64,000 nucleotides of DNA from SAR86 cluster bacterium (GCA_023703655.1 CP097973.1:664170-728169), one strand, 5' to 3'. Shown: positions 36,083 to 56,678, counted from the stretch's first letter. Notes: generated by a model from the sequence alone, not told the origin. A program made the numbers and translations.

Positions 36083-36397
36083 TCAATTGGTCGTTTGATC
36101 GATTAGCTTCTTCAGTTCTCCAGTAGAGTGCATTTGTGTAACGATATCACAGCCTCCAACTAGCTCACCATTAACAAATAATTGAGGAAATGTTGGCCAT
36201 TCTGAGACGTCTGGAAGGCTACTTCTAATTTCTGGATTCGAAAGTATATCAACATATGAGAATTCTGCTTCACATTCTATAAGTGCTTGCACTGTCTTTG
36301 CTGAGAATCCACACTGTGGCTCATATGGAGAACCTTTCATGTATAACAAAATATCGTTTTCAGATATTTGTTCTTTAATTTTTTTAATAATATCCAT
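36083..36397 (-). CDS. grxD: Monothiol glutaredoxin (Grx4/GrxD type)
   Basis: 104-aa CGFS glutaredoxin that binds a glutathione-ligated [2Fe-2S] cluster and delivers it. Active site EPQCGFSAKTVQ, then EWPTFPQLFVNGELVGGCDI with the cis-proline and glutathione loop. Overlaps the end of pdxJ by 14 bases. Facing the ferritin-like gene, 15 bases apart. Confidence 0.93.
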   Translation of the reverse strand: MDIIKKIKEQISENDILLYMKGSPYEPQCGFSAKTVQALIECEAEFSYVDILSNPEIRSSLPDVSEWPTFPQLFVNGELVGGCDIVTQMHSTGELKKLIDQTTN

Positions 36398-37151
36398 AAC
36401 CTTTTACTGCATTGATATACTTTAATATGGTAGCATCAAATCCATATTTCAAGGCATCAACTATTAAACTATGACCAATAGATACTTCATCAATTTCAGC
36501 ACATTCTTTTAAAAACTTTAAGTTGTCTAAATTTAAATCATGTCCAGCATTAACTTTTAACTTAGCACTTTTTGCATCCTCAACTAATTTACTAATAGCT
36601 AATTGAATTGATGTTAGTTGTTTTTTATTATTTTCTTCGACTGCTTTTGCTAATGGGCCTGTATATATTTCAATAGAATTAATTATTGTTCCTTTAATAT
36701 CATTTAATGCAGAAAAATTATGATCAACAAAAATACTTACAAATTTTGTCTCTGTAGGTGTATGTTCTTCTATTAATGAAAAAAATTTACTGTTTAAGTA
36801 TTTAGAATCCCAACCGTGATCTGAAGTAAGTTGATTGTTTTCATCTGGTACCAAGGTTACTTGGAACGGAGGATTTGATTTTATTATCTCTAAGAAGCCA
36901 GGATAGTCCTGTGTTTTTTGAGAAAATGGGTTTCCTTCAATGTTTAATTCTTTAGTATGTTTTTCGCAAATTTCTCTAAGTTTGCTTACATCATCAGGGG
37001 TAGCATGTCTTAGATCGGGACGAGGATGTAAAGTTAGCCCATCTACACCAAGCTTAACTGCAGATAATGCAAAATTTTCAATGTTAGGTTGGTCTTGGCC
37101 GCGAGCGTTCCTTATTAATGCAATCTTGTTTAAGTTGATGCTTAGATTCAC
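36384..37151 (-). CDS. pdxJ: Pyridoxine 5'-phosphate synthase
   Basis: Closes the pyridine ring of vitamin B6 from 1-deoxyxylulose 5-phosphate and 3-amino-2-oxopropyl phosphate. 255-aa barrel: LSINLNKIALIRNARG, LTLHPRPDLRHATPDDV, EGNPF, VTLVPD, NAGHDLNLDNLKFL and EVSIGHSLIVDAL are family blocks. Transcribed after the NTF2-like gene with a 15-base gap. Confidence 0.93.
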   Translation of the reverse strand: MNLSINLNKIALIRNARGQDQPNIENFALSAVKLGVDGLTLHPRPDLRHATPDDVSKLREICEKHTKELNIEGNPFSQKTQDYPGFLEIIKSNPPFQVTLVPDENNQLTSDHGWDSKYLNSKFFSLIEEHTPTETKFVSIFVDHNFSALNDIKGTIINSIEIYTGPLAKAVEENNKKQLTSIQLAISKLVEDAKSAKLKVNAGHDLNLDNLKFLKECAEIDEVSIGHSLIVDALKYGFDATILKYINAVKGYGYY

Positions 37152-37166
37152 AGCTTAATATTATTA

Positions 37167-37595
37167 TTATCCTCTATCTTTAAAATCATCAATGTTCACA
37201 GTTAAGCTTTCAAGATTATCTGGAGAGGTTATCGAACCATCATCCCAAAAAGCTCTACCTGAAACAATCTTACCCTCATCATTGACTATGAAATGATCAA
37301 CAATACTAATATCCATTCCAGAGTTATCATTATCATTACGAACTTGCATTGTTGCTTTTAAAATTCCTTCATTTGCACAGACAACAAATTCTTCATTAAC
37401 TGGAGTAATGTTCATTCCATTAGAATGGCCAAAATCCCAAAAAGCAGATATTGAATCAATGCCTTTGCAAGGTTCTGCACCTACAGGATCCTCAAATATT
37501 GCTGCTTCATCCCACAAAGATAAAAATAGCTCTTTATCATTATTTTTATAAGCAGTTACATACCCTTCCATTACTTTCATCACAGCTTCTTTCAT
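37167..37595 (-). CDS. Ketosteroid-isomerase-like (NTF2-fold) protein with the KSI catalytic triad
   Basis: 142-aa NTF2/SnoaL-fold protein. It aligns by eye with bacterial delta5-3-ketosteroid isomerase: Tyr12 (GYVTAYKNND) and Asp36 (FEDPVGAEP) are 24 residues apart exactly as Tyr16 and Asp40 in the Pseudomonas enzyme, and Asp100 (SIVDHFIVNDEGKI) fills the place of Asp103. The enzyme shifts a C=C double bond next to a ketone. The operon also holds a 3-ketosteroid-dehydrogenase-like protein and an SDR, which supports this. Many NTF2-fold proteins are not isomerases, so the activity is inferred. Overlaps the previous gene by 4 bases. Confidence 0.68.
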   Translation of the reverse strand: MKEAVMKVMEGYVTAYKNNDKELFLSLWDEAAIFEDPVGAEPCKGIDSISAFWDFGHSNGMNITPVNEEFVVCANEGILKATMQVRNDNDNSGMDISIVDHFIVNDEGKIVSGRAFWDDGSITSPDNLESLTVNIDDFKDRG

Positions 37596-38086
37596 TTTTT
37601 CTCCAGTTTTATTCCGTGCTCCTTTAGATGCACTTTAGTAAATTTTTGATCTTTTGCGATTGGCTCTATAGATTCACTTATTCTATCGTACTCGGAAAAT
37701 TGTATTAACCATTTAGAATCTTGGTAAACATACTTGTCCTTATATAATGCTGTTCCTTGAGTAATTATATTTTCGTTAAAGTTATAAAATATGTCGTGCA
37801 AATACCATAAACCTGCAGCATTCTTACCATCTATAATTTCTATTTCCGGATGATGTCCAGTATGCATTGCACATGTTTGGTCATGAAAAGAATATTTCAT
37901 GGAAGTAATAATTTCATCCTTTCCGGATGCCTGCCATCTGTAAGTACCTCCTCTATAGTCAACAGAAATATCATCAGTAAAAATTGTTGACAATAATTCA
38001 TAATCTGCCATGTCTATAGCTCTAAAGTATTTATGCTTTAAATTTCTAATCTCTTCAATTGCTAGTAATCTATCTATTGCTTCCAT
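37592..38086 (-). CDS. SnoaL/NTF2-like protein, 164 aa
   Basis: SnoaL_4-type NTF2 fold: a start helix IDRLLAIEEIRNLKHKYFRA, then DYELLSTIFTDDISVDYRGG and a HTGHHPEIEI-LWYLHDIFY beta sheet. Proteins of this type are often small isomerases, dehydratases or oxygenase partner subunits in steroid, aromatic or polyketide pathways. It lacks the KSI spacing seen in the next gene. One base separates it from the SDR upstream and it overlaps the KSI-like gene by 4 bases. Confidence 0.75.
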   Translation of the reverse strand: MEAIDRLLAIEEIRNLKHKYFRAIDMADYELLSTIFTDDISVDYRGGTYRWQASGKDEIITSMKYSFHDQTCAMHTGHHPEIEIIDGKNAAGLWYLHDIFYNFNENIITQGTALYKDKYVYQDSKWLIQFSEYDRISESIEPIAKDQKFTKVHLKEHGIKLEKK

Positions 38087-38087
38087 C

Positions 38088-38843
38088 TTATCTTAAATAA
38101 GCTTGCCCCCCATCAATCATAATTGTTGTTCCAGTAATATAACCCATTCCGTCTGAAATTAAGTGACATACTGCATTTCCAATATCTTTTTCACAGTCAC
38201 CAACTTTTTTTAGAGGTATGGTTTCAATAAATGCACTTGATTCTTCAGGATTATTTTCTACCCACCAATCCATTCCTACGGAATTTCCAAGTGGCATTAT
38301 TGAATTTACTCTAATATTATCTTTTCCCCACTCTACAGCAGCAGCTCTTGTTATGGATCTAATTGCTTCTTTAACTGCAGCATACATACCGTATCCCTGC
38401 GAATCAGGTCTTAAGCCAGCAGAACTTGCAAGATTTACAATATTGCCGCCATTCTCCAAAAATCTATGAAACTTTCTCATCAATCGAAAAGTTGCTAATG
38501 GTCCAGACTCCCAACCTGACACAAAATCTTCTTCACTAATTTCGAGAACACTACCTAATGGGACTTCTTGTGCATTATTAACAAGAACATTGATAGTGGT
38601 AAATTCTGAAATTATTTGCTCAATTGCCAAATCAATTGATTCTTCATGTTTCACATCGCACTCTACTGCGATAGTAGTGAGGCCCTCTTTATTAAGGTTC
38701 TTTGATGCTTTATTAACCTTATCAAATGTTCTACCAAGTAATGCAACTTTAGCTCCATGTTTAGCAAGAGCAGTAGCTATCCCAAGCCCAACCCCTTGAC
38801 CAGCTCCAGTAACGACCGCGGTCTTTGATGACAAATCTATCAA
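38088..38843 (-). CDS. Short-chain dehydrogenase (hydroxysteroid-dehydrogenase-like context)
   Basis: 251-aa classical SDR: VTGAGQGVGLGIA, VNNAQE, catalytic Ser region VNLASSAGLRPD, and Tyr/Lys in YGMYAAVKEAI, ending ITGTTIMIDGGQAYLR. An Arg after strand two (LLGRTFDK) suggests NADP(H). Overlaps the KstD-like gene by 4 bases and is followed by two NTF2-like genes, which points to oxidation or reduction of a ring hydroxyl on the same substrate. Exact substrate unknown. Confidence 0.78.
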   Translation of the reverse strand: MIDLSSKTAVVTGAGQGVGLGIATALAKHGAKVALLGRTFDKVNKASKNLNKEGLTTIAVECDVKHEESIDLAIEQIISEFTTINVLVNNAQEVPLGSVLEISEEDFVSGWESGPLATFRLMRKFHRFLENGGNIVNLASSAGLRPDSQGYGMYAAVKEAIRSITRAAAVEWGKDNIRVNSIMPLGNSVGMDWWVENNPEESSAFIETIPLKKVGDCEKDIGNAVCHLISDGMGYITGTTIMIDGGQAYLR

Positions 38844-40558
38844 AAATTTGCTCCAGTAATATCTTTTGCAGCAAGATAACCAAATGTCATTGCAGGTCCA
38901 AGAGTTGAACCAGGTCCTGGATATTTAGGTAATAAAGCTGTGGTGCAATTTCCACATGCATATAAACCACTAATGGGATTTTTACTTGTATCAAGAACGC
39001 GTGCATTGGAATCTATAACCAATCCGCCTGCGGTACCCATTTCACCAGGATATAAAACCATACAATAAAACGGTCCTTTTTCTAGGGGTGCAAGGCATGG
39101 ATTAGGCTCAACTGACGGATCGCCGTAATATCTATCATATGCTGTGTCGCCTCTTTGGAAATCAAGATCATTACCAGTTTTACTAAACTCATTTACTTTT
39201 TGTTGAGTCTTCAATAGCCCATTGGCATTTAAACCAACTTTCTCAGCTAATTCTTCAAGTGTATCGGCTTTTGTTAAAAATGATGGATCCCACCATTCTT
39301 TTGGTACTCTTGAATCAGGCTGCATTGAGGCTTGAAGAAGAGGACCACATGGTCTATTTTTCCTAAAATCACTATCAAAGATCATATAGCACGGTGCACA
39401 CGGATTACCATTAGCATATTCCTTAAACATATCGTTTACAAAGCTTACGTAGTTTTGTGATTCGTTTGAAAAACGCTCTCCATTCTTGTTAACTGTATAG
39501 TTTCCTGGCATTGACTTATCGACCATTGATAACCACCCTTTATCTTGACCAGGAACTTTCATGGTAGTTGACCACCAACCAGTATCCATTTGATGAGTAG
39601 CCGCATTAAGGCGTAAACCTTCATTAAGTGCATCACCAGTATTATGGACATTTGCAGCGCTCCACTCTGCGTTTGTAGGTTGTGGTAAATATCGCTCTCT
39701 AAGTTCTTGGTTTTTTTCAAAACCACCAGATGCTAATATCACTCCCTTATTTGCTTTTATATTGAGTGTCTTTTCTCCTTGTGATGCCTTAATACCAATT
39801 ACCCTCCCGTCTGCAAATATGATCTCTGACATCGAAGTATTTCTCCAAATTGGTATATCTCTGTCCTTGCAGGAAAGTATTAATCTTGCAATACCAGCAT
39901 TTCCCATTGTTAATCTTCGATCTTTCCAACCAAAAAATAATCTCATGGGTAAATCGAATATATACTTAACAAATAGTTTGGCAAACAAAGCTTTCCATCC
40001 TGGTAGAGCGCCAAGTAATAGTTGACCCTCTACTTGGGTAAAGTTCATTCTAATTGGGCCCATTGTAAAAGCAGTTTGAGGATGTTGATCTCTTAAAAAA
40101 TTCAAATCATCTCCTAAATCAGTCCCAGGAATTGGTTCAGGTTCCATTGATCTATTTCCCTCTTTACCACCAGGGTTATCTGGGAAATAATCTGGATAGT
40201 GAGCTAAGTTTCTATACTTTACCCTTGAATTTTCGTGAAGATAATCGATCATTTTTGGACCATGTTCTAAATATGCCTCAATCAGATCATCTTCAATCAT
40301 GCCATCGGGAGAAACACTGTTGATGTATGCTTTAGCATCATCATAAGAATCATCAACATTCTCTGCAACTGCATACCTATTATTGGGTATCCAAACTCCT
40401 CCTCCAGATGTAGCACTTGTGCCACCATATTGATTTGATTTCTCAATAACAAGAACACTTGCACCACCATCTCTTGAGCAAATAGCTGATGTCAAACCAC
40501 CATTACCAGTACCAATGACAACAACATCAAATTCATGATCAAAATTAAAATTTTCCAT
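38840..40558 (-). CDS. 3-ketosteroid delta1-dehydrogenase-like flavoprotein
   Basis: 572-aa FAD enzyme of the KstD / fumarate-reductase-like family. N-terminal VVIGTGNGGLTSAICSRDGG with EKSNQYGGTSATSGGGVWIP, and a C-terminal YPGEMGTAGGLVIDSNARVL followed by GLYACGNCTTALLP and YPGPGSTLGPAMTFGYLAA. These C-terminal blocks closely follow KstD proteins, including the catalytic Tyr region. The family desaturates ring A of 3-ketosteroids. First gene of a probable six-gene transcript ending in grxD; next gene overlaps by 4 bases. A different 3-oxo ring substrate is possible. Confidence 0.8.
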   Translation of the reverse strand: MENFNFDHEFDVVVIGTGNGGLTSAICSRDGGASVLVIEKSNQYGGTSATSGGGVWIPNNRYAVAENVDDSYDDAKAYINSVSPDGMIEDDLIEAYLEHGPKMIDYLHENSRVKYRNLAHYPDYFPDNPGGKEGNRSMEPEPIPGTDLGDDLNFLRDQHPQTAFTMGPIRMNFTQVEGQLLLGALPGWKALFAKLFVKYIFDLPMRLFFGWKDRRLTMGNAGIARLILSCKDRDIPIWRNTSMSEIIFADGRVIGIKASQGEKTLNIKANKGVILASGGFEKNQELRERYLPQPTNAEWSAANVHNTGDALNEGLRLNAATHQMDTGWWSTTMKVPGQDKGWLSMVDKSMPGNYTVNKNGERFSNESQNYVSFVNDMFKEYANGNPCAPCYMIFDSDFRKNRPCGPLLQASMQPDSRVPKEWWDPSFLTKADTLEELAEKVGLNANGLLKTQQKVNEFSKTGNDLDFQRGDTAYDRYYGDPSVEPNPCLAPLEKGPFYCMVLYPGEMGTAGGLVIDSNARVLDTSKNPISGLYACGNCTTALLPKYPGPGSTLGPAMTFGYLAAKDITGANF

Positions 40559-40610: not shown

Positions 40611-41744
40611 ATGAAAACTGAAATAGCTGAGAAATTAGGAATTGAATACCCAATATTTGCATTCACACATTGCAGAGATGTTGTTGTTGCAGTAAGCAAA
40701 GCAGGCGGCATTGGCGTTTTAGGTGCTGTTGGATACTCACCTGAGCAATTAAAAGAAGAGCTTGATTGGATAGATGCACATATTGGCGATTATCCCTATG
40801 GGGTGGATACAGTAATTCCACAGAAATATGAAGGCATGGATAATAAAGATCCTGAAGAATTACTAGAGCAACTTCAAAAGCTTGTTCCTGAAGAACATAA
40901 AAGTTTCGCTCAAAAATTGTTAAATGATCATGGGGTTCCTGAGGCAGATACATCAAACGGACCAGAAGGAGGGCTCCTTGGATGGACTGAGGCAACTGCT
41001 GGACCGCAAATTGAAGAAGCATTAAAAAGAAAAAATGTAAAACTTATTGCTAATGCACTTGGAACACCGCCAGCAGATATTGTAAAAAAGATTCAAGACA
41101 AGGGGATTTTGGTTGGTGCATTGTGTGGAAAGATTAAACAAGCTAAAGCTCATAAGGAGGCTGGGCTAGATTTTATTATTGCACAAGGTGGTGAAGGTGG
41201 TGGCCACACTGGTGAAATAGGCAGTATAGTTTTATGGCCTCAAATTATTGATGCAGTCGGTGATATGCCTGTTTTAGCTGCAGGAGGTATTGGAAATGGC
41301 AGACAAATGGCTGCTGCTATGGCAATGGGAGCACAAGGTATTTGGGCTGGTTCATTGTGGTTGACTGTAGAAGAATCTCACTCACAGCCTGCACAACGAG
41401 AATCTTACTTAAATGCGACAAGCGAAGATACAATTCGGAGTCGTGCATGGACTGGTAAACCTGCAAGAATGTTAAAAAATAAATGGACTGAGGCCTGGGA
41501 AAGTGATGATACTCCTGATCCATTGCCTATGCCTTTGCAGGGAATGGTAACTTTTGATGCGATTAGAAGAACTGCAATGTATGCAGACAAGGGAGAAGCA
41601 CAGGCAGTTTCTTTTAATGCAGCTGGACAAGTAATAGGTCAAATTAATGAAGTTGAGTCGGCAAAAAATGTTGTTTTCAAGTTAGTTAGTGAATATGTAG
41701 ATACACTTGAGAAAATGAATGCATCAATGCCTCAAATCGATTAA
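40611..41744 (+). CDS. Nitronate monooxygenase / 2-nitropropane dioxygenase family protein
   Basis: 377-aa FMN barrel: YPIFAFTHCRDVVVAVSKAGGIGVLGAVGY (residues ~14-43) and AQGGEGGGHTGEIGSIVLWPQI with AAGGIGNGRQMAAAMAMGAQGIWAGS are the FMN-binding blocks of the NMO/FabK group. In steroid and terpenoid clusters such proteins are often enoyl-type reductases or NMO-like enzymes rather than true nitronate oxidases. Divergent from the KstD-like gene with a TATAAT at 40580 and no Shine-Dalgarno. Its TAA stop shares TTAA with the convergent M20 gene. Confidence 0.8.
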   Translation: MKTEIAEKLGIEYPIFAFTHCRDVVVAVSKAGGIGVLGAVGYSPEQLKEELDWIDAHIGDYPYGVDTVIPQKYEGMDNKDPEELLEQLQKLVPEEHKSFAQKLLNDHGVPEADTSNGPEGGLLGWTEATAGPQIEEALKRKNVKLIANALGTPPADIVKKIQDKGILVGALCGKIKQAKAHKEAGLDFIIAQGGEGGGHTGEIGSIVLWPQIIDAVGDMPVLAAGGIGNGRQMAAAMAMGAQGIWAGSLWLTVEESHSQPAQRESYLNATSEDTIRSRAWTGKPARMLKNKWTEAWESDDTPDPLPMPLQGMVTFDAIRRTAMYADKGEAQAVSFNAAGQVIGQINEVESAKNVVFKLVSEYVDTLEKMNASMPQID

Positions 41745-43036
41745 TTAGTCATTGCGATCGAATAGTCATTCACTAGGTGTATGAATGACTTTACACCATT
41801 GATCAAAGCATCATCGTCTACATAAAAGTATGGTGAGTGATTTGAAAAATCACTTTCCTTATCTTTAGGATTAACACCTAAATAAAAAAATAAACCAGGT
41901 ACTTGTTGAGCAAAAAATGAAAAGTCCTCTGCTCCGGTCCTTGGCAATGTCCATTCAATAAATTGTCCATTAGATGCTCGACTTAATGATGGCATCATCA
42001 TTTTAGCAAGATCAATATCATTTACTGTCACTGGATAACCGCCATATACTCTGAATTTAACATCGGCTTCAGCATTATGAGCTTCCGCAACATTTGTAGC
42101 AATCTTTGTAATTTCATCATAGATTCTTTTTCGATAATCTTCGTCAAAAGTTCTTATGGTGCCTTCTAGCATTACCTCTTCTGGAATAATATTGTTTCGC
42201 GTACCTCCCCTAATAATCCCAACTGAAATTACAGCTTGGCTCTCAAGTATATTTAATCTTCTGCTAACTATAGTTTGTAATGTTGATCCTATATCATAAG
42301 CAGCAGTAATCGGATCGACACCTGACCATGGTCTAGATCCATGAGTTTGTTTACCTTTCACAATTATTCTGAATGCTTCAGCGGAAGCCATGGCTGGACC
42401 TGGCTTCAGTGCAATCCATCCATGCTTTGCATTTGTTACGTGCATTCCAAAAATAGCATCTGGCTTTTCTTCTTTAAAAATTCCCTCTTTAAGCATTAAT
42501 TCTGCACCACCCTCTTCACCCTCAGGAGCTCCCTCTTCAGCAGGCTGAAAAATTAACATAATATCTCCACGAAGCTTATCTTTATTATTTGTTAAAAATT
42601 CAGCTACGCCTAATAAAACTGCCATATGTGCGTCATGACCACACGCATGCATTACTCCAACATCTTGACCTTGATATACAGTTCTGACTTTCGATGAAAA
42701 TGGTAAATTAAGTTTTTCTTCAACAGGCAATGCATCCATATCAGCTCGCAAAGCCATTAAAGGTCCTTCTTTTTGACCTCTGATCATCGCTATTAAGCCT
42801 GTATGTGCTATTCCAGTTTCTACACTTAATCCCATATCTTCTAATTTTGATTTAATATACTTTGCAGTTTCAAACTCTCTGTTTGATAGTTCTGGATATT
42901 CATGAAAGTGGTGCCTCCATTCAATCACATTTGTCATCACCTCTTGAATGTCACTTTCAATTAAATCAACAAGTTCCTTTGCAGTTAGATGCAAGCAACT
43001 AAGCAAAATTGAGAAAAATAAAAAATTCAGTTTCAT
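41741..43036 (-). CDS. Exported M20D amidohydrolase / aminoacylase-like peptidase
   Basis: 431 aa; hippurate-hydrolase-like zinc amidohydrolase. Metal ligands and active site: HACGHDAH, a Glu-rich EEGAPEGEEGG block, FGMHV, and TGAEDFSFF. A signal peptide leads (MKLNFLFFSILLSCLHL); LLSC resembles a lipobox, so the mature enzyme may be a lipoprotein starting at Cys14. It would split acyl-amino acids outside the cytoplasm. Last gene of the F420 operon, overlapping the previous stop by 4 bases; a link to F420 is not obvious. Confidence 0.82.
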   Translation of the reverse strand: MKLNFLFFSILLSCLHLTAKELVDLIESDIQEVMTNVIEWRHHFHEYPELSNREFETAKYIKSKLEDMGLSVETGIAHTGLIAMIRGQKEGPLMALRADMDALPVEEKLNLPFSSKVRTVYQGQDVGVMHACGHDAHMAVLLGVAEFLTNNKDKLRGDIMLIFQPAEEGAPEGEEGGAELMLKEGIFKEEKPDAIFGMHVTNAKHGWIALKPGPAMASAEAFRIIVKGKQTHGSRPWSGVDPITAAYDIGSTLQTIVSRRLNILESQAVISVGIIRGGTRNNIIPEEVMLEGTIRTFDEDYRKRIYDEITKIATNVAEAHNAEADVKFRVYGGYPVTVNDIDLAKMMMPSLSRASNGQFIEWTLPRTGAEDFSFFAQQVPGLFFYLGVNPKDKESDFSNHSPYFYVDDDALINGVKSFIHLVNDYSIAMTN

Positions 43037-43911
43037 TTTGTTTTAGAAAAATTAAATAATAAGGGTGGCGTATTTTTGCAATAATCTAAAAATCCATCTC
43101 TTTTTTCAGCAGATCTTTTATCCATCATTGGAATAGATGCCCTTGCTATTAAAATGTACATTACAATCGTGCCTCCAATTAACCAAATATTGCTCAAAGT
43201 GCTTCCAAGAGCAAAAATTAACCCACCAGACCAAAAGAGAATTTCACCTAAATAATTAGGATGTCTAGAATAAAACCAAAGGCCTTTGTCCATGACCTTA
43301 TTAGCATTATTTGGATCTTGTCTAAACTTATACATTTGTTGATCTGAAACAATTTGTAAAATAACTGCACTTATGATTGTTAAGGTTGCAAATAAATCAA
43401 AAATGCCTACACCATTGCTAGGGTAATAAAGCACAAAACAAAATGGAACTGTTGTTAAATAAACACAAACTGTAGGTATTAGATGTATTTGAAAAAAATC
43501 TACTGATGCAAATTCAAATTTTGAAGATGTTCTTCCTTTCATCATTACATACCTCCAATCTTCATGATTAAATCCATCCCATGATCTTATCCAATTATAA
43601 GTAAGTCTTATTGCCCACAACATTACACATGCGAACACTAAGACTGATCTTAGAAAATTTCCATCTGCATTAAAGTCTGTCCAAACAAGAATTAAAAGAA
43701 ATGGTGGAATAACTGACCAATATGCGTCATACCAACTTGAATTACGAAATAAAACGCTACATAAATATATAAAAATTGTTGCAATGACATCTACAAAAAA
43801 TAATCTTAGCCAAATATTAATTTCAAACATTAAATTCCAACTCATCATCATTAAGTAAAAACAGATGCAATATCCAATAAGAATTACTATTAAATCTCTA
43901 ATTTTATTCAT
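43033..43911 (-). CDS. DUF1295 membrane protein (steroid-reductase-like fold)
   Basis: 292 aa with about seven membrane segments. The conserved C-terminal block FYSRHPNYLGEILFWSGG identifies the DUF1295 family, which shares its fold with steroid 5-alpha-reductase C-terminal domains and isoprenylcysteine methyltransferases. Family members are thought to be membrane reductases or methyltransferases of lipid substrates. Its place between the FO-synthase and M20 genes (4-base overlaps on both sides) makes an F420- or NADPH-linked lipid reduction an attractive, untested idea. Confidence 0.75.
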   Translation of the reverse strand: MNKIRDLIVILIGYCICFYLMMMSWNLMFEINIWLRLFFVDVIATIFIYLCSVLFRNSSWYDAYWSVIPPFLLILVWTDFNADGNFLRSVLVFACVMLWAIRLTYNWIRSWDGFNHEDWRYVMMKGRTSSKFEFASVDFFQIHLIPTVCVYLTTVPFCFVLYYPSNGVGIFDLFATLTIISAVILQIVSDQQMYKFRQDPNNANKVMDKGLWFYSRHPNYLGEILFWSGGLIFALGSTLSNIWLIGGTIVMYILIARASIPMMDKRSAEKRDGFLDYCKNTPPLLFNFSKTK

Positions 43912-46310
43912 GTAAAGCTCCTCTCCTGATCAAAATGATTAATATCTTTTAACTTAAGTTTGAGTTTATCAAAATTAGCTTTAGTAGGTTCTTTCAAGAG
44001 ATCATATTTAGTGTTACGTTCAATTAATTTCATGTTTTTGCTTTCAACGATATTTTTAATATAAATAAGATCTAACTCTTGACCATGTCTGGCACCAGCT
44101 GATCTTGTGATTGTTTCATTCATTAAAATGCCACCAACATCATTGATTCCTGAGTCTAGGAGATATGATAGACCTGCATAACCCATCTTCACCCAAGATC
44201 CTTGGATATTTTTAATTGATTCATTTAAATATATTCTAGATATTGAGTGTACAAGTACTGATTCTCGAAAACTTGGACCTGATCTTGATAATCCTCTTAA
44301 ATACATTGGTGCTTCACTAGCAACATACGGTAATGGTACGAATTCAGTTATGCCGTTTGATTCTAACTGTAATGACTTTAGTTCATGCATATGTTTAGCG
44401 ATGTCATAATAATTTTCAACATGTCCGAACATCATAGTCGAAGTAGTAGGTAGTCCAATTGAATGAGCTGCTTTAATTACGTTAAGCCATTCATTTGTAT
44501 TAATCTTATCAGGACAAATTATTTCTCGAACATTATCATCAAGTATTTCAGCAGCAGTACCAGGCAAAGAATTCAAACCTGCCTCCTTAAGTTTTAACAA
44601 ATACGATTTCACATCAGTATTAGCACAATTTGCTCCATGTGAAATTTCCAATGGAGAAAAAGCATGTATGTGAATAGTATCTGATACTTCTCTAATTGAT
44701 TTAACAATATCAATGTAAGTATTTTCATCAAATTTCGGATGAATGCCGCCTTGTAAACATACCTCATTCGCACCTCGACTTATTGCTTCAAGTACACGTC
44801 TCTGTATTTCATCTAGGGAGATATTGTAAGATTTACCTCTTAAGCTTTTTGCACCTGTACTCTTTGAAAAAGCACAAAAACTACAGCTATAAATACACAT
44901 ATTGGTGTAGTTAATATTTCTATTTGAAACATATGTAATTGTGTTACCGTTTAGTTTGCCTCTTAACTCATTTGCATATTTTCTTAGATAGTTAAAATCT
45001 CCATCTCTTGATTCAAATAAGTTTGCAAGAGAATTAATGCAATCTTTTTTTTCAATATTTTGAATTAGTTGTTTTATATTACTGATATTTTTTGGGTGCA
45101 GTAGGATCTGTGGTAAGTCTTCTGTTACTCCAGGTTGCCACTCATCTTCTTTTATATATCCAGAAGCATCGGTGAGATTAAGAAGTCTAGATTTAATATT
45201 TTTTGAAAAAAATAAAGAGCTATCTTGAAGAGCTTTTGCTGAAACTGTTGTTCTTTTCAATAAATGCTGATTAGTCTTGATACAAAATTTACTAATTTTT
45301 GATATTTCTGGCCATGGTGCTTCAGGGTTAACATGATCAATTGTTAACGGAGATATGCCACCTAAGTCATCAATGCCTGATTTCAGTAATTCAACAAGAT
45401 TATTTGCATTTAAATTTGGTGGAACTTGTAGTGAGATTTTTGGATCGAGAATTTTTCTAGCCATGGAAATTGTCCAAAGAAGCTCGTCAAAATCTGGCTC
45501 ATCAGAATTTTCCATTAACGTTTCTTTTTTGGCCTTAAAGTTTTGAATAATAACTTCTTGTATATTTCCAAATTCTTTAAAGATGTTATTAATTACTGTT
45601 AATGATTGAAGTCGTTCTTCTCTTGTTTCTCCAATGCCAATTAGAATGCCAGTTGTAAACGGTATTTTCTGTTGACCTGCACAAATAAGTGTCTGAATTC
45701 TAAAATTAGGATCTTTGTCAGGTGAGCCGTAATGAGGCATGCCTTTTTGACATAATCTTGCACTGTGACTCTCTAGCATCATGCCCATAGAACCAGAATA
45801 ATTTTTTAATTTTTCAATCTCATTTATGTCCATTGTTCCAGGATTTAAATGAGGGATTAAACTAGTAGTATTTAATATTTCCTGAGACACGTTCTTTACA
45901 TAATCTAATGTGCTTTCAAATCCTAGAGCATTTAGACTGTCTCTTGCAGCTTTATATCTAAGCTCTGGCTTATCACCAAGAGTTATAAGTGCCTCGCGAC
46001 AACCAAGTTCTTCACCTTTTTTTGCAATTTCAAGAGCTTCCTCTATTGCCATATAAGGAGAGTCAATTTTTCTTGGAACTTTAGCAAAAGTACAGTAATG
46101 ACAAACATCTCTACATAAAAAAGTGAGTGGTAAAAAAACTTTAGGGGAAAAACTAATAATTTTTCCATAGTGGGCGACCTTAATATCAAATGACTCTTTT
46201 AAAAGAGTATCAGTTAAAGGTATTTTTGATAGATTTTTTGCAAGCTCATGATCAACAAAATTATTGATATCAATCCTATCAAAGTTATGTTTCTTAATAA
46301 TTTCTGACAT
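43908..46310 (-). CDS. fbiC: FO synthase, CofG-CofH fusion
   Basis: Makes the deazaflavin FO, the chromophore of coenzyme F420, from 5-amino-6-ribitylamino-uracil and tyrosine. 800 aa with two radical-SAM halves. The CofG half has CRDVCHYC (Cys66, 70, 73), and the CofH half has CIYSCSFC (Cys472, 476, 479). The fused order matches actinobacterial FbiC and proteobacterial homologues, unlike the separate archaeal CofG and CofH. Follows cofC by overlap at 46310 and is part of a contiguous F420 operon. Confidence 0.93.
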   Translation of the reverse strand: MSEIIKKHNFDRIDINNFVDHELAKNLSKIPLTDTLLKESFDIKVAHYGKIISFSPKVFLPLTFLCRDVCHYCTFAKVPRKIDSPYMAIEEALEIAKKGEELGCREALITLGDKPELRYKAARDSLNALGFESTLDYVKNVSQEILNTTSLIPHLNPGTMDINEIEKLKNYSGSMGMMLESHSARLCQKGMPHYGSPDKDPNFRIQTLICAGQQKIPFTTGILIGIGETREERLQSLTVINNIFKEFGNIQEVIIQNFKAKKETLMENSDEPDFDELLWTISMARKILDPKISLQVPPNLNANNLVELLKSGIDDLGGISPLTIDHVNPEAPWPEISKISKFCIKTNQHLLKRTTVSAKALQDSSLFFSKNIKSRLLNLTDASGYIKEDEWQPGVTEDLPQILLHPKNISNIKQLIQNIEKKDCINSLANLFESRDGDFNYLRKYANELRGKLNGNTITYVSNRNINYTNMCIYSCSFCAFSKSTGAKSLRGKSYNISLDEIQRRVLEAISRGANEVCLQGGIHPKFDENTYIDIVKSIREVSDTIHIHAFSPLEISHGANCANTDVKSYLLKLKEAGLNSLPGTAAEILDDNVREIICPDKINTNEWLNVIKAAHSIGLPTTSTMMFGHVENYYDIAKHMHELKSLQLESNGITEFVPLPYVASEAPMYLRGLSRSGPSFRESVLVHSISRIYLNESIKNIQGSWVKMGYAGLSYLLDSGINDVGGILMNETITRSAGARHGQELDLIYIKNIVESKNMKLIERNTKYDLLKEPTKANFDKLKLKLKDINHFDQERSFT

Positions 46311-46888
46311 TATGAAATAAGCTTATTTAATTTATCTAATGTTAACAAATTAAGATCATCTTCTGTATCTAAATCAAAAGAGATATTCTTTAAATCAACT
46401 TTAATGTAATCAGTTCCAATCTTTTCAAAATAACTACAAAATTTGTTGAGACTATTCTTGCCAAATAAGAGTTTTTGATTCCTCCATTTGAAACCAACTG
46501 CATTTGTTCCACTTGCAAATCTATCGGGGACAACAAAAGTTTTTTGTTGATGAATCAAATTCGTCAAATAATCTAGATCTTGATTTGATATCAATGGAAG
46601 ATCTGCATGCATGATAACAATAAACTCATCTTTTTTAGCATAGGTATTAATCGCATCTTCGAGTGCTTCATTAAGATTCTTTTTTGAAAAAAAGCTATTT
46701 TCTTCCTTTTCAGTAATATCTCGAGCATTAGAAACAACTATGGGTTGCAATTTATTTTTTTTAAGGATTTTGACGGTTCCAATAAACATATTTTTAGACA
46801 AGTTTTTCCGTTGTGCAGATCTCAAAACTTTTGTTAATCTTTGTTTAGATTGATCAAATGATTTAATTGGAATAAAGAATTTATACAA
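46310..46888 (-). CDS. cofC: Phosphoenolpyruvate/2-phospholactate guanylyltransferase
   Basis: Activates a three-carbon phosphate with GTP for the F420 side chain. 192-aa MobA/CofC nucleotidyltransferase: FIPIKSFDQSKQRL, VSNARDI, IMHADLPLIS and DRFASGTNAVGFKW with FGKNSLNKF. Which three-carbon donor (2-phospholactate, phosphoenolpyruvate or 3-phosphoglycerate) is used differs between lineages and cannot be read here. The start is a TTG, 2 bases after the cofD stop. No C-terminal nitroreductase-like FbiB module is seen in the operon. Confidence 0.85.
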   Translation of the reverse strand: MYKFFIPIKSFDQSKQRLTKVLRSAQRKNLSKNMFIGTVKILKKNKLQPIVVSNARDITEKEENSFFSKKNLNEALEDAINTYAKKDEFIVIMHADLPLISNQDLDYLTNLIHQQKTFVVPDRFASGTNAVGFKWRNQKLLFGKNSLNKFCSYFEKIGTDYIKVDLKNISFDLDTEDDLNLLTLDKLNKLIS

Positions 46889-46890
46889 TT

Positions 46891-47817
46891 TTAGCTTTCA
46901 CTTAATTGAGAAATTATTGAGTCTGCAAGATTTTTTTTGGTTTTAATATCTTTCATAATTAGATCAGCAAGGTAAACATTAAAGCCTAACTCATTTAATT
47001 CATTTAAATATTTTTTATCTTTGTTATCTATAAAAATATTTTTCGAAACTTCATTGTAATAATTTGCAACAGAAACAACAGTGGAATTGAAACCCAATTC
47101 CTTAAAAATTTTTGAGGTTGGTCCCTTTATAGATCTATCATTAACGATTGGGGAAACTATAACTACATCTTTTTTTCTGTTCTTAAGGTAATCTTTAAAT
47201 TTTCTTAAAGCAAGAATAGGTCCTATGCTTATAAATGGATTAGATGGACAAATGATAAATTTGTCATAGGTATCTAGCTTTATTTTCTTATTAAAACTTG
47301 CAGTTATTGCTCCTTTAAAAACAAAATCTGAAGCTGTAGGCTCACATTTATATTTTACAAAATATTCTTGAAATGAAAGGATATCTTTTTTGGTCTTGAT
47401 GAAAGTACTAACTGAATCATCAGACATTGGATAAATATTTTCTTTTATCCCAAAACTATCTTTTATATCTTTAGTTACTTCAGTAAGTTTTTTTCCTTTA
47501 CTTAAATTAAATGTGCGATAGATATGTGTGGCTAAATCTTTGTCTCCTAATTGAAACCATGTATCGCCTCCCATTGAATCTAGCTCAGTGAGCATTTGCC
47601 ATGATTCTTTTGATCTACCCCATCCTTTTTTAAGATCTACCTTATCGCTCAAAGTATAAGTTACAGTATCTAAGTCTGGGCAAACATATAGTCCGAGATG
47701 ATTAAAATCATCTCCAGTATTTACAACTATATCAATTGAATTTGAGTCTATTGCTTTACTGAAACCTAATGCTAATTTTGCACCTCCTACTCCACCACAA
47801 ATCAAAAGATATTTCAT
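46891..47817 (-). CDS. cofD: 2-phospho-L-lactate (or PEP) transferase, F420 biosynthesis
   Basis: Joins the activated three-carbon unit from CofC to FO, giving F420-0. 308 aa: LICGGVGGAKLALGFSK, VNTGDDFNHLGLYVCPDLDT, WFQLGDKDLATHIYRT and CPSNPFISIGPIL are diagnostic CofD/FbiA motifs. Overlaps cofE by 4 bases and precedes cofC by 2. Confidence 0.93.
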   Translation of the reverse strand: MKYLLICGGVGGAKLALGFSKAIDSNSIDIVVNTGDDFNHLGLYVCPDLDTVTYTLSDKVDLKKGWGRSKESWQMLTELDSMGGDTWFQLGDKDLATHIYRTFNLSKGKKLTEVTKDIKDSFGIKENIYPMSDDSVSTFIKTKKDILSFQEYFVKYKCEPTASDFVFKGAITASFNKKIKLDTYDKFIICPSNPFISIGPILALRKFKDYLKNRKKDVVIVSPIVNDRSIKGPTSKIFKELGFNSTVVSVANYYNEVSKNIFIDNKDKKYLNELNELGFNVYLADLIMKDIKTKKNLADSIISQLSES

Positions 47818-48536
47818 CTAAACAGGTCCTCTTTTTCATTTCTAATTAACGACTGAGCATTAAGTTTTGATTCTCTTCGTTTATAAAAATCTCTTATTAT
47901 TACTAAGGGCATTGCTTCATTTGCTTGACCCATTATTAGTGAAGCTGATGCAGCAAGTTCATCTGCGATTCCAATCTGTGTAACTTTAAGATCATTTCCA
48001 TATAAGTCAAATGATCCTATTTCATCTCTAAGGCATTCTAAGTTATAACTCCCAATTGCAAATCCAACTGCGCCATTCCTAAAGGGTCGTCCCATGGTGT
48101 CGCTAATGATAATAGAGATATCTTTTTGAAAATACTTCTCTAATTTTTGACCAATTTTTTTTGCAGATTTGTCTGGATCTTTTGGAAGCAATAATATTTG
48201 TTCATTTTTTTGATCGATATTTGATCTATCGATACCTGCGTTAGCATGTATAAACCCAAGTTTATGCTCAACAATAAGCACATTTTTTTTATATCTAACA
48301 ATCTTTTTGGACTCATCTAAAACTGCTTGAACAAGACGAGGATCTTTAGAAATTTTATCGCCAACAGTTTTAGCTTTTTTTGTTGGTTTAATGTTGCTTA
48401 ATTTACGATATCTATTTTCAGATTTAGATATAATTTTTTGGGCAATTGTAAGAATATCTCCATTATGGATGCTAATCTTATTTGTTTTTAAATTATGAAT
48501 AATAATATCTGCAATATCATCTCCAGGAGAAATCAT
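47814..48536 (-). CDS. cofE: F420-0:gamma-glutamyl ligase
   Basis: Adds the glutamate tail of F420. 240 aa from the ATG at 48536: ISPGDDIADIII, VISKSENR-type QKIISKSENR, VNAGIDxSN as IHANAGIDRSN, and SDTMGRPFRNGAVGFAIGS. The stretch just upstream of that ATG, in frame, reads INISIFGTKSFP, which lines up with the N-terminal strand of known CofE proteins. The true start is therefore probably an ATT at 48572, 7 bases after GGAG, overlapping the npdG stop. It lacks the nitroreductase domain found in FbiB. Confidence 0.9.
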   Translation of the reverse strand: MISPGDDIADIIIHNLKTNKISIHNGDILTIAQKIISKSENRYRKLSNIKPTKKAKTVGDKISKDPRLVQAVLDESKKIVRYKKNVLIVEHKLGFIHANAGIDRSNIDQKNEQILLLPKDPDKSAKKIGQKLEKYFQKDISIIISDTMGRPFRNGAVGFAIGSYNLECLRDEIGSFDLYGNDLKVTQIGIADELAASASLIMGQANEAMPLVIIRDFYKRRESKLNAQSLIRNEKEDLFR

Positions 48537-48574
48537 TGGAAAAGATTTTGTACCAAAGATTGAAATGTTAATTT

Positions 48575-49207
48575 CTACACTCCAGTAATCTTTATACCTG
48601 AGTGTTTAATTTCATGGTTTTTATTTATAGCAATAAGTATTGAAGTCAAGGCTTCTGCTGCTGCAGAATTACAAAGCGGGCCAGCATGCCAGCCAGTTAA
48701 TCCAATTTTATTAATTAAACTTATAACTTCCTCTCTTGCAGCTTTCTTATCACCACAAACAAGAACATCACAGTCAATCATTGCATCGCTTTGAAGTAAT
48801 TCTGCTGATATATTTTGGAATGCCGACACCACTTGAGTAGATTCATCTAAGATCATTTGAGCTTTTAGTGCAGCACAACCCTCTTTAGGTAGCTGGACAC
48901 GCATAACTTTTGGCGGTATGAGTGGTACAGTTGCGTCAATAAGTATTTTATTTTTTAGCGGTTCAATCAATCCTTTCAATGTTTCTGTTTGTGATGAAAA
49001 TGGGACAGTTATAATTCCTAAATCACACTTTGATGCAACATCATAATTTAGTCCGCCATTCTCTTCTTTTAAACCAAGCGATAAAGCAGCAGAAATCGCT
49101 GAGTCTTGTTTTCTAGAACCAATAAAGACTTCAAATCCAGTTTTAATCATTCTGGACGCAAGACCTTTTCCTAGGGCGCCAGTACCACCAATAATTCCAA
49201 TTCTCAT
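48575..49207 (-). CDS. npdG: F420H2:NADP+ oxidoreductase
   Basis: Exchanges hydride between NADP(H) and F420, keeping F420 reduced. 210 aa: NADP loop IGIIGGTGALGKGLASRM with IGSRK after strand two (an Arg for NADP phosphate), ITVPFSSQ, VVSAFQNISAELL, VCGDKKAA and the family block GPLCNSAAAEALTSIL. It heads the F420 biosynthesis genes and overlaps the probable cofE start. It is the only clear F420-using enzyme in the window. Confidence 0.85.
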   Translation of the reverse strand: MRIGIIGGTGALGKGLASRMIKTGFEVFIGSRKQDSAISAALSLGLKEENGGLNYDVASKCDLGIITVPFSSQTETLKGLIEPLKNKILIDATVPLIPPKVMRVQLPKEGCAALKAQMILDESTQVVSAFQNISAELLQSDAMIDCDVLVCGDKKAAREEVISLINKIGLTGWHAGPLCNSAAAEALTSILIAINKNHEIKHSGIKITGV

Positions 49208-51847: not shown

Positions 51848-52921
51848 ATGAATTCTAAAATTGATGAGTGGTATAAATTTTGTGATGAACTAAAAGAAGT
51901 TGGGAGGATTATTAGCGAAACCTCGGATAACACAATTGATGAAAACGAAGGCTTCAGATATGTTTTAAGATTATTGCGTCTTTCTACAGAAATGTATTTT
52001 GAACATTGCAATCCTGAACATAGCTCTTTTTATTGCTTATCTCACGAAACTGGCAAGATTGGTGCAGATAATCCAGATAATCATTACTTGAATGCAAATA
52101 TAGATTCAAATAATTCTTACTTGATTGAGGGAAATATTGGGGGTGTAGAATATTTGAGTATTGGAGTAAAAGAAAATAGATACTCACTGGATGGGACTAT
52201 GGTCTCACATGATGAAATTGATTTAGAAAAAATTGATATTGATCAAGATGGGAATTTTCAAGTTACTTTAAAACGTGGCAATAATCAAAATAAAAATTCC
52301 TTAAATTTAGAGCCTGCATCTAATATGATAATTGTCAGACAAACCTATAAAAATAAAACAACCGATAAAAAAGCAGTATTACAAATTAAAAATACCTCTT
52401 CCTCTTGTAAATCAGACATATTAAGTGATAAAAAATTTACTGAACATCTAAGTCAAAGTTTAGATTTTGTAAAAGGAACTGTAAATACATTTAATGAGTG
52501 GGTAAATATTTTTAAAAAAGATCATATGAATGCATTACCTTTAGGTAACCAAAAATTCTTTCAAGCAGCGGGTGGAGACCCAAATATTCAATATCATCAT
52601 GGCTATTTTAAATTTAAAAGTGATGAGTGTATGGTTATACAGTCTAAGATACCAGTATGTGAGTATTGGAATTTTCAACTTGAAAATAACTGGATGGAAT
52701 CTTTAGATTACAGGTTTTATCCAATTCACTTAAATTCTCATACTGCAGATCTTGATGAAAATGAATTCATAATACATGTAACACATGAACCTATAGATGC
52801 AAAAAACAATATAATTACATGTGGAAGAGAAAATGGCGCAATGCTTTTAAGATGGATTGGAGCAAATGAGCAAACAATACCAAACGTAAAAATTGTAAAA
52901 ATAGACAAACTAAATGACTAA
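51848..52921 (+). CDS. DUF1214-domain protein
   Basis: 357 aa. The C-terminal part matches DUF1214: FFQAAGGDPNIQYHHGYFKF, CEYWNFQLENNWMESLDYRF and HEPIDAKNNIITCGRENGAM. The rest (1-200) is beta-rich with no clear motif. DUF1214 proteins are common beside sulfotransferases, SDRs and amidohydrolases in actinobacterial and sphingomonad catabolic clusters; their biochemical role is unknown. First gene of a tight five-gene operon, overlapping the next by 8 bases. Confidence 0.75.
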   Translation: MNSKIDEWYKFCDELKEVGRIISETSDNTIDENEGFRYVLRLLRLSTEMYFEHCNPEHSSFYCLSHETGKIGADNPDNHYLNANIDSNNSYLIEGNIGGVEYLSIGVKENRYSLDGTMVSHDEIDLEKIDIDQDGNFQVTLKRGNNQNKNSLNLEPASNMIIVRQTYKNKTTDKKAVLQIKNTSSSCKSDILSDKKFTEHLSQSLDFVKGTVNTFNEWVNIFKKDHMNALPLGNQKFFQAAGGDPNIQYHHGYFKFKSDECMVIQSKIPVCEYWNFQLENNWMESLDYRFYPIHLNSHTADLDENEFIIHVTHEPIDAKNNIITCGRENGAMLLRWIGANEQTIPNVKIVKIDKLND

Positions 52922-54065
52922 ACTAAATATTAATAACCTAAAAATTGCAGCATGCGAGCAAACAGAATTAAATGATTTTGGTGAAGGTATTTTTCTTGAA
53001 GGACTGCAAAAAATGATTGAATCAATAAATCAAGAGGCAAATCTAATTGATGTTGGTAACGATGCCCAAGCTCAGAGGATAATTGGTCTCTTAATAAATA
53101 GATTGAGATTTGAAGATGATTTAAAAAAATATTCTGAAATATTAGATCATAAAATTATCTCCCCGATTGTTATCGTTGGTCTTCCTAGAACAGGTAGCAC
53201 AATGACTCATAGAATGTTAGCAGCTGATGAAAATCACACTGCAATGCTTTGGTGGGAAGGTAGATATCCATCAATGTTACCGAATGAAAAAAGAGGACAT
53301 CCGATTGATAGAATGAATTTGGGCAAAGCAGAGGTTGAAGCTGTTGTCGCTGCTTCACCGGATGCGCTAAAAATTCATCCCTGGGATTACAAGGGTGCGG
53401 ATGAGGAAATTCTATTGCTTGAACACAATTTTATGAGTACTGTGCCTGAATCATTTATGAGACTACCTACCTATTCTGAATGGATTGAAGAACAAAACCA
53501 TAAAGTTGCCTATCAAGATCTTAAAAAATGGATTCAATATTTACAATGGCAAAATCCAGGAAGAGAAGAAAAAAGATGGGTATTAAAATCACCTCATCAT
53601 TTGGGTTTCATTGATAAACTAATTGAAGTATTTCCTGATGCTCAAATCATACAAACACATCGAGATCCCATAAAAACCGTTCCATCATTTTGTTCAATGT
53701 GTGCAAATCTTTTTGAGCCTCTTGCAATTGATTTTGATAAAAAATTTATTGGTGCACATTGGGGTAATAAGCTTTCTAGGGCACTAAATCATTGCATGGA
53801 AGTTAGTAAAATACATAAAGATAACTTTCTTGATTTAAAATTTGAAAATATGATTAAAGATCCTATCGATGAGATGAAGAAAATCTATGAATTTATTGGA
53901 GAGCCGTTTGGCGAAAGAACAGAACTAGCAATTCAGGCATGGCAGGAAGAAAACAAACACGAAATGGGAGCACATAAATATGAGCTTGCAGACTATGATT
54001 TAACAAAAGAATTTATAACTGAGAATTTTAAAGATTATAAAGCGAGGTATATTAATGTTACTTAA
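52914..54065 (+). CDS. Sulfotransferase family protein
   Basis: 383 aa with the PAPS-binding PSB loop VIVGLPRTGSTMTHRML and the 3'-phosphate site region IQTHRDPIKTVPSFCSM. These identify a PAPS-dependent sulfotransferase of the broad Sulfotransfer_3 type, which acts on lipid or small hydroxyl compounds. Typical in mycobacteria and marine bacteria with sterol-like metabolism. Overlaps both neighbours, so translation is coupled. Confidence 0.85.
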   Translation: MTKLNINNLKIAACEQTELNDFGEGIFLEGLQKMIESINQEANLIDVGNDAQAQRIIGLLINRLRFEDDLKKYSEILDHKIISPIVIVGLPRTGSTMTHRMLAADENHTAMLWWEGRYPSMLPNEKRGHPIDRMNLGKAEVEAVVAASPDALKIHPWDYKGADEEILLLEHNFMSTVPESFMRLPTYSEWIEEQNHKVAYQDLKKWIQYLQWQNPGREEKRWVLKSPHHLGFIDKLIEVFPDAQIIQTHRDPIKTVPSFCSMCANLFEPLAIDFDKKFIGAHWGNKLSRALNHCMEVSKIHKDNFLDLKFENMIKDPIDEMKKIYEFIGEPFGERTELAIQAWQEENKHEMGAHKYELADYDLTKEFITENFKDYKARYINVT

Positions 54066-54834: not shown

Positions 54835-54846
54835 TTAAAATCCATT

Positions 54847-55713: not shown

Positions 55714-55715
55714 AC

Positions 55716-56678
55716 ATGGAAGAAAATAAACGTTATCCAATGCCAATACCTTTTGGGTGGTATTGCGTAGGTCAATCAAAAGATTTAGAACCAGGAGATG
55801 TAAAACCCGTAAGGTATTTTGGTCAAGATCAAGTGCTTTTTCGCACCTCAACAGGTGAGGTTGCAATGTTAGATGCATATTGTCCACATTTGGGTGCTCA
55901 CTTAGGGCATGGAGGAATTATCACAAACGATTGCATTGAATGTCCATTCCATGCATGGCGTTGGAAGCCTGATGGGACCATTGGAGAAATTCCATATGCT
56001 AATAAAATCCCACCACGTGCGAAAGAAACTCAAATCTTTAAGTACCCTACTGTAGAAGAAAATAAATTAATTTATGCTTGGTATCACCCTAAAGGTGAAG
56101 CACCAACTTTTGATGTTCAAGTACACTCTGAATTGAAAGATCCTGAGTGGGCTGATGAATGGGACGTTTATGAATATAACGTGGGATGCCACATCCAAGA
56201 TATGGCTGAAAATGCTGTAGATGCAGCACACTTTGTCTATGTGCATGGAGTAGTCAGTTATCCAGATTTTGAAGTCTCGTATGATGGTCATAAAAGAATA
56301 TCAATCCAAAAAGCTGACATGGAAACACCTAGAGGGACAGTTCCTGGTTCTATAACATCTAAATCAAGTGGGCCAGGTGATGGTTTTACAAAATTTGAAG
56401 GTATCTGTGACACATTGCTTTTGGGTCTCACTACTCCAATCGAAAGAGAAGAAGTCATTATAAGATTCTTCTTCTTAAAGAAAAAAGTGAATGGTGAAGT
56501 TCCTGAAGGAGGTGTAGCTGCTGCAATAATCAAAGATATCAATAAGCAAGTAAAAGAAGACATACCTATATGGGAAAATAAAAAGTTTGCTAATCAACCA
56601 GTTTTATGTGACAGAGATGGGCCAATAGCAAAATTCAGAAGACACTACGCAACGTTCTATGCTAATGAGGATGCATAG
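55716..56678 (+). CDS. Rieske [2Fe-2S] oxygenase, KshA-like
   Basis: 320-aa oxygenase with a Rieske centre in CPHLGAH ... CPFHAWRW (~50-75) and a mononuclear iron site in AENAVDAAHFVYVHG (~168-182; two His and Asp). The ENxVDxAHFxYVHG form is that of 3-ketosteroid 9-alpha-hydroxylase (KshA) and the related cholesterol 7-desaturase group. Needs an electron donor; the FNR-type reductase and rubredoxin encoded in this window are candidates. A steroid-like ring substrate is inferred. Confidence 0.82.
   Translation: MEENKRYPMPIPFGWYCVGQSKDLEPGDVKPVRYFGQDQVLFRTSTGEVAMLDAYCPHLGAHLGHGGIITNDCIECPFHAWRWKPDGTIGEIPYANKIPPRAKETQIFKYPTVEENKLIYAWYHPKGEAPTFDVQVHSELKDPEWADEWDVYEYNVGCHIQDMAENAVDAAHFVYVHGVVSYPDFEVSYDGHKRISIQKADMETPRGTVPGSITSKSSGPGDGFTKFEGICDTLLLGLTTPIEREEVIIRFFFLKKKVNGEVPEGGVAAAIIKDINKQVKEDIPIWENKKFANQPVLCDRDGPIAKFRRHYATFYANEDA

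Follow-up and report, generated by a model that had tools for sequence, protein, structure and literature searches.

What does a bacterium of the SAR86 cluster use a ketosteroid isomerase (KSI), a KstD-like flavoprotein and a short-chain dehydrogenase (SDR) for, when their genes lie side by side? We have analyzed a window of 64,000 nucleotides containing these genes, at 664-728 kb of a 1.33-Mb genome (CP097973.1:664170-728169) that is a single contig and 92% complete. The proteins closest to the flavoprotein (78-82% identity) come from SAR86-cluster genomes, a few of them from MAGs labelled merely as gammaproteobacterial or proteobacterial; the source genome is a SAR86. Genome-based predictions of steroid degradation by SAR86 date from 2016 (PMC4810484); in 2024 they were restricted to certain genera within the Suzuki family, and tesI, hsaA/C/D, fadD3, kshA and kstD were named (PMC11582366), so the broad claim is not new. 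Our analysis indicates that the genes belong to a set of four which, in this bacterium, very probably prepares rings A and B for aerobic steroid catabolism by the 9,10-seco route.

The four genes are all on the minus strand. The set begins with kstD (38840..40558), coding for a 572-aa FAD protein assigned by homology, residues and tree as a KstD-like 3-ketosteroid delta1-dehydrogenase. A classical SDR of 251 aa with a TTG start follows (38088..38843), then a 164-aa SnoaL_4 protein resembling the BaiE/Hsh2 steroid dehydratases (37592..38086) and, last, the 142-aa SnoaL_2 protein, the predicted KSI (37167..37595). The initial annotation had proposed the first, second and last of these, with the SDR two genes upstream of the isomerase and the flavoprotein before it. 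The ORF layout agrees in coordinates and order, and all three genes are present; the SnoaL_4 gene in between had been left undescribed. KstD and SDR overlap by 4 nt, as do the BaiE-like and KSI genes, the gap between SDR and BaiE-like gene is 1 nt, and GGAG-type ribosome sites precede the SDR and KSI starts. The order of the set is kept in about 28 SAR86 loci. From the overlaps, the 1-nt gap and this conserved order, all of them observed, we infer a single transcript. It probably extends into pdxJ (36384..37151, minus strand; PF03740, 204 bits), located 15 nt downstream of KSI, and into the monothiol glutaredoxin-like gene that overlaps pdxJ (36083..36397, minus strand; CGFS motif in the sequence). 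Scans for promoters and terminators gave no clear excess over shuffled sequences (24 against 18.7 ± 4.2 and 3 against 2.0 ± 1.5, respectively) and are uninformative on the operon. On the other side, 52 bp from kstD and divergent from it, there is a gene for an FMN protein of the nitronate monooxygenase (NMO) family (40611..41744, plus strand; PF03060, 165 bits), with 77-91% identity among SAR86 orthologues.

The flavoprotein contains both motifs reported for it at the outset, YPGEMGTAGGL and YPGPGSTLGPAMTFG. Its best solved relative is AcmB, the cholest-4-en-3-one delta1-dehydrogenase of Sterolibacterium denitrificans (PDB 7p18, E 2.8e-143, 42% identity), with KstDs next (PDB 8joj, 36% identity, and 4c3x), and with both types it shares a full-length alignment and four catalytic positions. 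In the alignment of the tree sequences these positions (Y124, Y370, Y546 and G550) are kept in every KstD-side row, and those of Y124 and Y370 are replaced in the 4at0-type rows; we take Tyr119, Tyr318, Tyr487 and Gly491 (Rhodococcus KstD1 numbering) to be the catalytic set of KstD with the FAD_binding_2 fold. The phylogeny that the initial annotation had suggested, here a maximum-likelihood tree, places the protein with homologues from SAR86, Pseudomonadales and Alteromonadaceae (100/99), on the side of AcmB and the actinobacterial delta1-KstDs. A 100/100 split sets it apart from the delta4-(5alpha)-KstD 4at0 and from two paralogues encoded in its own genome; the tree has long branches, and the adjacency to AcmB is weaker than this split. 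A fumarate-reductase-like enzyme was also considered for this gene, and was rejected on the grouping with delta1-KstDs together with the catalytic residues. On the NCBIfam model for 3-oxosteroid 1-dehydrogenase the score was 520.7 bits, under the equivalog cut-off of 788, and for this reason orthology to the exact curated subgroup is not claimed. Unlike AcmB and KstD, the SAR86 proteins form a separate supported clade, the score lies below the curated cut-off, and the gene is in a predicted operon with a dehydratase and a KSI. The assignment as a delta1-KstD is supported by sequence, residues and tree.

The NCBIfam search assigned no family to the KSI or the BaiE-like protein, and therefore we used structure comparison for both. 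The 164-aa protein matches BaiE (PDB 4l8p) with an E of 7.2e-17, and its Y20, D25, H75 and D98 align with Tyr30, Asp35, His83 and Asp106, presumably the catalytic residues of BaiE. The four residues are invariant in 19 homologues, two of them from outside SAR86. When the predicted model was used in a fold search, the four best matches were all BaiE, then came LinA and scytalone dehydratase. The last two are also eliminating enzymes. It shares with the bile acid 7alpha-dehydratase BaiE of Clostridium the SnoaL_4 family, the Tyr/Asp/His/Asp set and, over the fold alignment, 29-32% identity, so that a BaiE-type dehydratase is supported by sequence, residues and modelled fold. What differs from BaiE and from Hsh2 of Sphingobium is the setting, aerobic and catabolic beside KstD and KSI; the position and stereochemistry of the elimination are putative. 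As to the SDR (adh_short_C2, 165 bits), it has TGAGQGVG, N89, S141, Y154 and K158, the Y, K and N being unchanged across 16 orthologues, and we consider it a putative hydroxysteroid dehydrogenase. The promiscuity of the SDR family counts against a firm steroid assignment.

The presence of this dehydratase, with its catalytic residues, would fit a module devoted mainly to bile salts and bile alcohols (from fish and zooplankton) through a delta4,6 variant like that of Sphingobium Chol11, and not to sterols; besides, Hsh2 homologues have been reported in marine metagenomes (PMC12175502). However, a KSI serves delta5-3beta-hydroxy substrates of the sterol type and is unneeded for 5beta bile salts, yet it is kept across SAR86, and a 7-hydroxylated delta5-sterol would suit both the KSI and the BaiE-like enzyme. 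We regard a specialization in bile salts as rather unlikely. The enzyme set as a whole suggests steroid substrates that are delta5 and 7-hydroxylated.

In the isomerase, Tyr12, Asp36 and Asp100, the residues singled out in the initial annotation, are indeed there and align with Tyr14, Asp38 and Asp99 of the Comamonas KSI. In phmmer searches the 142-aa protein matched 1ocv (F116W mutant) with an E of 2.8e-9 and the wild-type 8cho with 6.2e-8. The three residues are invariant across 21 orthologues with identities down to 37%, and likewise W117, which corresponds to the Trp116 of the F116W mutant. Given the alignment, the phmmer E values and this invariance, the Tyr/Asp/Asp spacing reflects homology and not chance. 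A structure prediction had been proposed as a check, and the AlphaFold2 model (pLDDT 92.3) has the NTF2 fold of KSI; its top 43 matches in the PDB were all solved KSIs (1ocv with TM 0.90 and E 1.9e-11), and sequence and fold alignments both place Y12, D36 and D100 in accord with KSI. Fold and triad are those of the delta5-3-ketosteroid isomerases of Comamonas testosteroni and Pseudomonas putida, whereas the identity to known KSIs is about 26% and most SAR86 copies have a C-terminal extension of some 17 residues. In two gammaproteobacterial loci outside SAR86 that keep KstD-BaiE a KSI homologue was not detectable. Some mycobacterial KSI-like proteins are not known to have isomerase activity, and NTF2-fold proteins are functionally diverse, so at such an identity this SnoaL-like protein might be one more member of the fold devoid of that activity. 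With four invariant residues and only KSIs among the nearest 43 solved structures we find this improbable, and a ketosteroid isomerase is the assignment supported by sequence and model.

The rest of the genome provides the context. A second cluster, at 898.9-918.4 kb and about 190 kb away, carries genes of ring degradation. These include FadD3 (642.8 bits, cut-off 657), HsaF and HsaG (above cut-off), FadA6 (632 bits, cut-off 591), HsaE, HsaD and HsaC, IpdA, IpdB and an IpdC-like protein, together with a P450, SDRs, an acyl-CoA dehydrogenase and EchA20-type and other enoyl-CoA hydratases; we assigned the names Ipd, EchA20 and FadA6 by gene order and family match. HsaA lies at 1032 kb (375 bits; PDB 2rfq, E 9.4e-80) and a delta4-(5alpha)-KstD-like protein at 454 kb (4at0, E 5.4e-87). 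The window itself contains a KshA-like Rieske oxygenase, a candidate 3-ketosteroid 9alpha-hydroxylase (55716..56678, plus strand; PDB 4qdf KshA, E 3.1e-47), whose orthologue (51-52% identity) adjoins kstD in another locus, L030. In an Alteromonadaceae MAG, IpdA-IpdB-EchA20-FadA6 and KstD-BaiE are in a single cluster. KstD was present in 19 of the order's 151 genomes and HsaC in 18; 18 had both, leaving one genome with KstD alone and none with HsaC alone. This co-distribution and the downstream genes are strong evidence that the module would serve steroid ring degradation. HsaA, HsaC, HsaD and KstD score under their NCBIfam equivalog cut-offs, and hence their exact substrates may differ. That, and the use of 4-oxocyclohexanecarboxylates by related KstD-type enzymes (seen in lower-scoring models), might indicate a non-steroid polycyclic ketone, such as another terpenoid or alicyclic compound, degraded by steroid-like chemistry, but this is very unlikely, as the genome has HsaA, KshA and the whole HIP-type downstream set, all of them co-distributed, and its KstD groups with AcmB and KstD.

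Since HsaC/D/E/F/G, IpdA/B/C, FadD3, FadA6, KshA and HsaA coexist in the genome, the module most likely readies rings A and B for the 9,10-seco cleavage. Homologies, residues, folds, conservation and the downstream pathway are observed; from them we infer substrates and an order of reactions. The SDR would oxidize a ring hydroxyl, likely that at C3, to the ketone. KSI, using Asp36 as its general base and Tyr12 and Asp100 as the oxyanion hole, would then convert the delta5 double bond into a delta4 one. The BaiE-like enzyme could act on the delta4-3-ketone by eliminating an allylic hydroxyl, most likely the 7alpha one, through acid-base catalysis by Asp25-His75 and Tyr20, to give a delta4,6-diene. 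After the dehydratase, KstD would add the delta1 double bond, the hydride passing to FAD and Tyr370 acting as base. Hydroxylation at C9 by KshA (55716-56678, or a split KshA located elsewhere) would open ring B and aromatize ring A, and HsaA, HsaC, HsaD, HsaE-G, FadD3 and the Ipd enzymes elsewhere in the genome could complete the breakdown. Oxidation, double-bond shift and ring A desaturation of a 3-keto ring compound had been anticipated in the initial annotation. The tree, the KSI fold and the rest of the genome support this steroid reading, to which the dehydratase step has to be added; the position on which the SDR acts is only putative. KstD, KshA, HsaA/C/D and FadD3 are common to the SAR86 pathway as predicted before (PMC4810484, PMC11582366), whereas the operon of four genes, its BaiE-like member, the linkage to F420 and the split KshA are undescribed in the passages of those papers that we consulted.

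The F420 biosynthesis operon (cofGH-C-D-E-npdG) is located about 3.3 kb from the steroid gene set, also on the minus strand. It codes for the FO synthase CofGH (43908..46310; NCBIfam CofH 482 bits and CofG 462 bits, both above cut-off), CofC (46310..46888; TIGR03552, 111 bits, cut-off 105), CofD (46891..47817; TIGR01819, 279 bits, above cut-off), CofE (47814..48536; TIGR01916, 266 bits, above cut-off) and the NADPH-F420 reductase NpdG (48575..49207; TIGR01915, 173.5 bits, cut-off 149.8). The order npdG-cofE-cofD-cofC-cofGH-DUF1295-M20-NMO-kstD-SDR-BaiE-KSI-pdxJ-grx is repeated in the majority of the approximately 28 SAR86 loci. Of the order's 151 genomes, 18 had both kstD and cofH, and in 16 of these the two genes lay 4-8 kb apart; kstD was alone in one (81% complete), cofH alone in three of one genus, and 129 had neither. 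This association is partly due to shared ancestry, which the order-wide Fisher p values ignore, and we have not used them as probabilities. Across the class, 4 among 368 other genomes share CofH and KstD (14 with CofH, at least 9 with KstD, a lower bound as three candidates per genome were scored), giving a p of 1.5e-4. The class-wide association is fragile: p rises to 0.019 without KstD matches under 39% identity, and to 0.17 if one genome (G310) is removed as well.

Candidate users of the cofactor are also found next to steroid genes. The Hsa/Ipd cluster of this genome includes a luciferase-fold (LLM) oxidoreductase with close homologues in 16 genomes, all of which have kstD. In L030, where KshA is next to KstD, a different LLM oxidoreductase adjoins cofGH on the opposite strand. 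The best solved relatives of these proteins are mixed, and use of F420 or FMN is inseparable by sequence. There is a parallel in M. tuberculosis, whose cholesterol gene set includes Rv3520c, annotated as F420-dependent. We put forward tentatively, with slightly less than even confidence, that F420 takes a direct part in the breakdown of steroid rings in SAR86 and in certain other gammaproteobacteria, that a reduction or a dehydrogenation is catalyzed there by F420-dependent luciferase-fold oxidoreductases encoded in the steroid clusters, and that this is the reason why these proteobacteria make F420.

The enzymes themselves come from known families, in a lineage whose steroid pathway had already been predicted; of interest here are chiefly the F420 link and an enzyme set hinting at delta5 and 7-hydroxylated substrates. 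The role of F420 in Proteobacteria was left as an unanswered question, with steroids unmentioned, in a 2021 review (PMC8498797), and the kstD-F420 association offers a testable answer to why some of them make it. SAR86 are among the commonest bacteria of the surface ocean, and the module, with its concrete and readily expressed candidate enzymes, bears on whether part of the group clears the steroid nucleus from seawater.

The genes for F420 biosynthesis form a complete operon (cofGH, cofC, cofD, cofE and npdG; positions 43908-49207, minus strand) in the streamlined 1.33-Mb genome of this SAR86 bacterium. Next to it, between an M20 peptidase gene and cofGH, a DUF1295 membrane protein is encoded (43033-43911, minus strand) that gave a weak match of the steroid 5-alpha-reductase type (23.3 bits against a cut-off of 22.6). 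The source genome encodes six luciferase-fold (PF00296) proteins. KstD and HsaC were not found at the thresholds used in three genomes carrying CofH (G045, G057 and G118), all belonging to one genus of another SAR86 family. Their F420 may serve another purpose, or the assemblies may be incomplete. Some SAR86 genomes (G135, G101, G144, G001 and G110) had an additional, more distant KstD copy with 46-49% identity to the query, the one in G110 containing one internal stop.

In the Hsa/Ipd cluster of the source genome (locus L062), a KshA is split into two genes overlapping by 4 nt (L062 positions 9504-10771, minus strand; about 900.5-901.8 kb of the contig). One product is a stand-alone Rieske protein of 134 aa with CKH...CPFH intact. 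The other, a KshA_C protein of 288 aa (PF19298, 193 bits), retains the DKGHFGPVH motif and starts with a vestigial-looking Rieske segment without ligands. A frameshift artefact could be ruled out because the same split appears at three other loci, L086, L087 and L088 (61-68% and 81-83% identity).

A third KshA-like protein (locus L060, 1462-2460, plus strand; contig about 777.7 kb) has Rieske ligand motifs that look degraded, with CAF replacing C-X-H and CPKS replacing CPFH. Within the window, genes for an unknown protein, a sulfotransferase, an SDR, an amidohydrolase and a KshA-like protein follow each other (51848-56678, plus strand), a run that looks like a second steroid-type operon.
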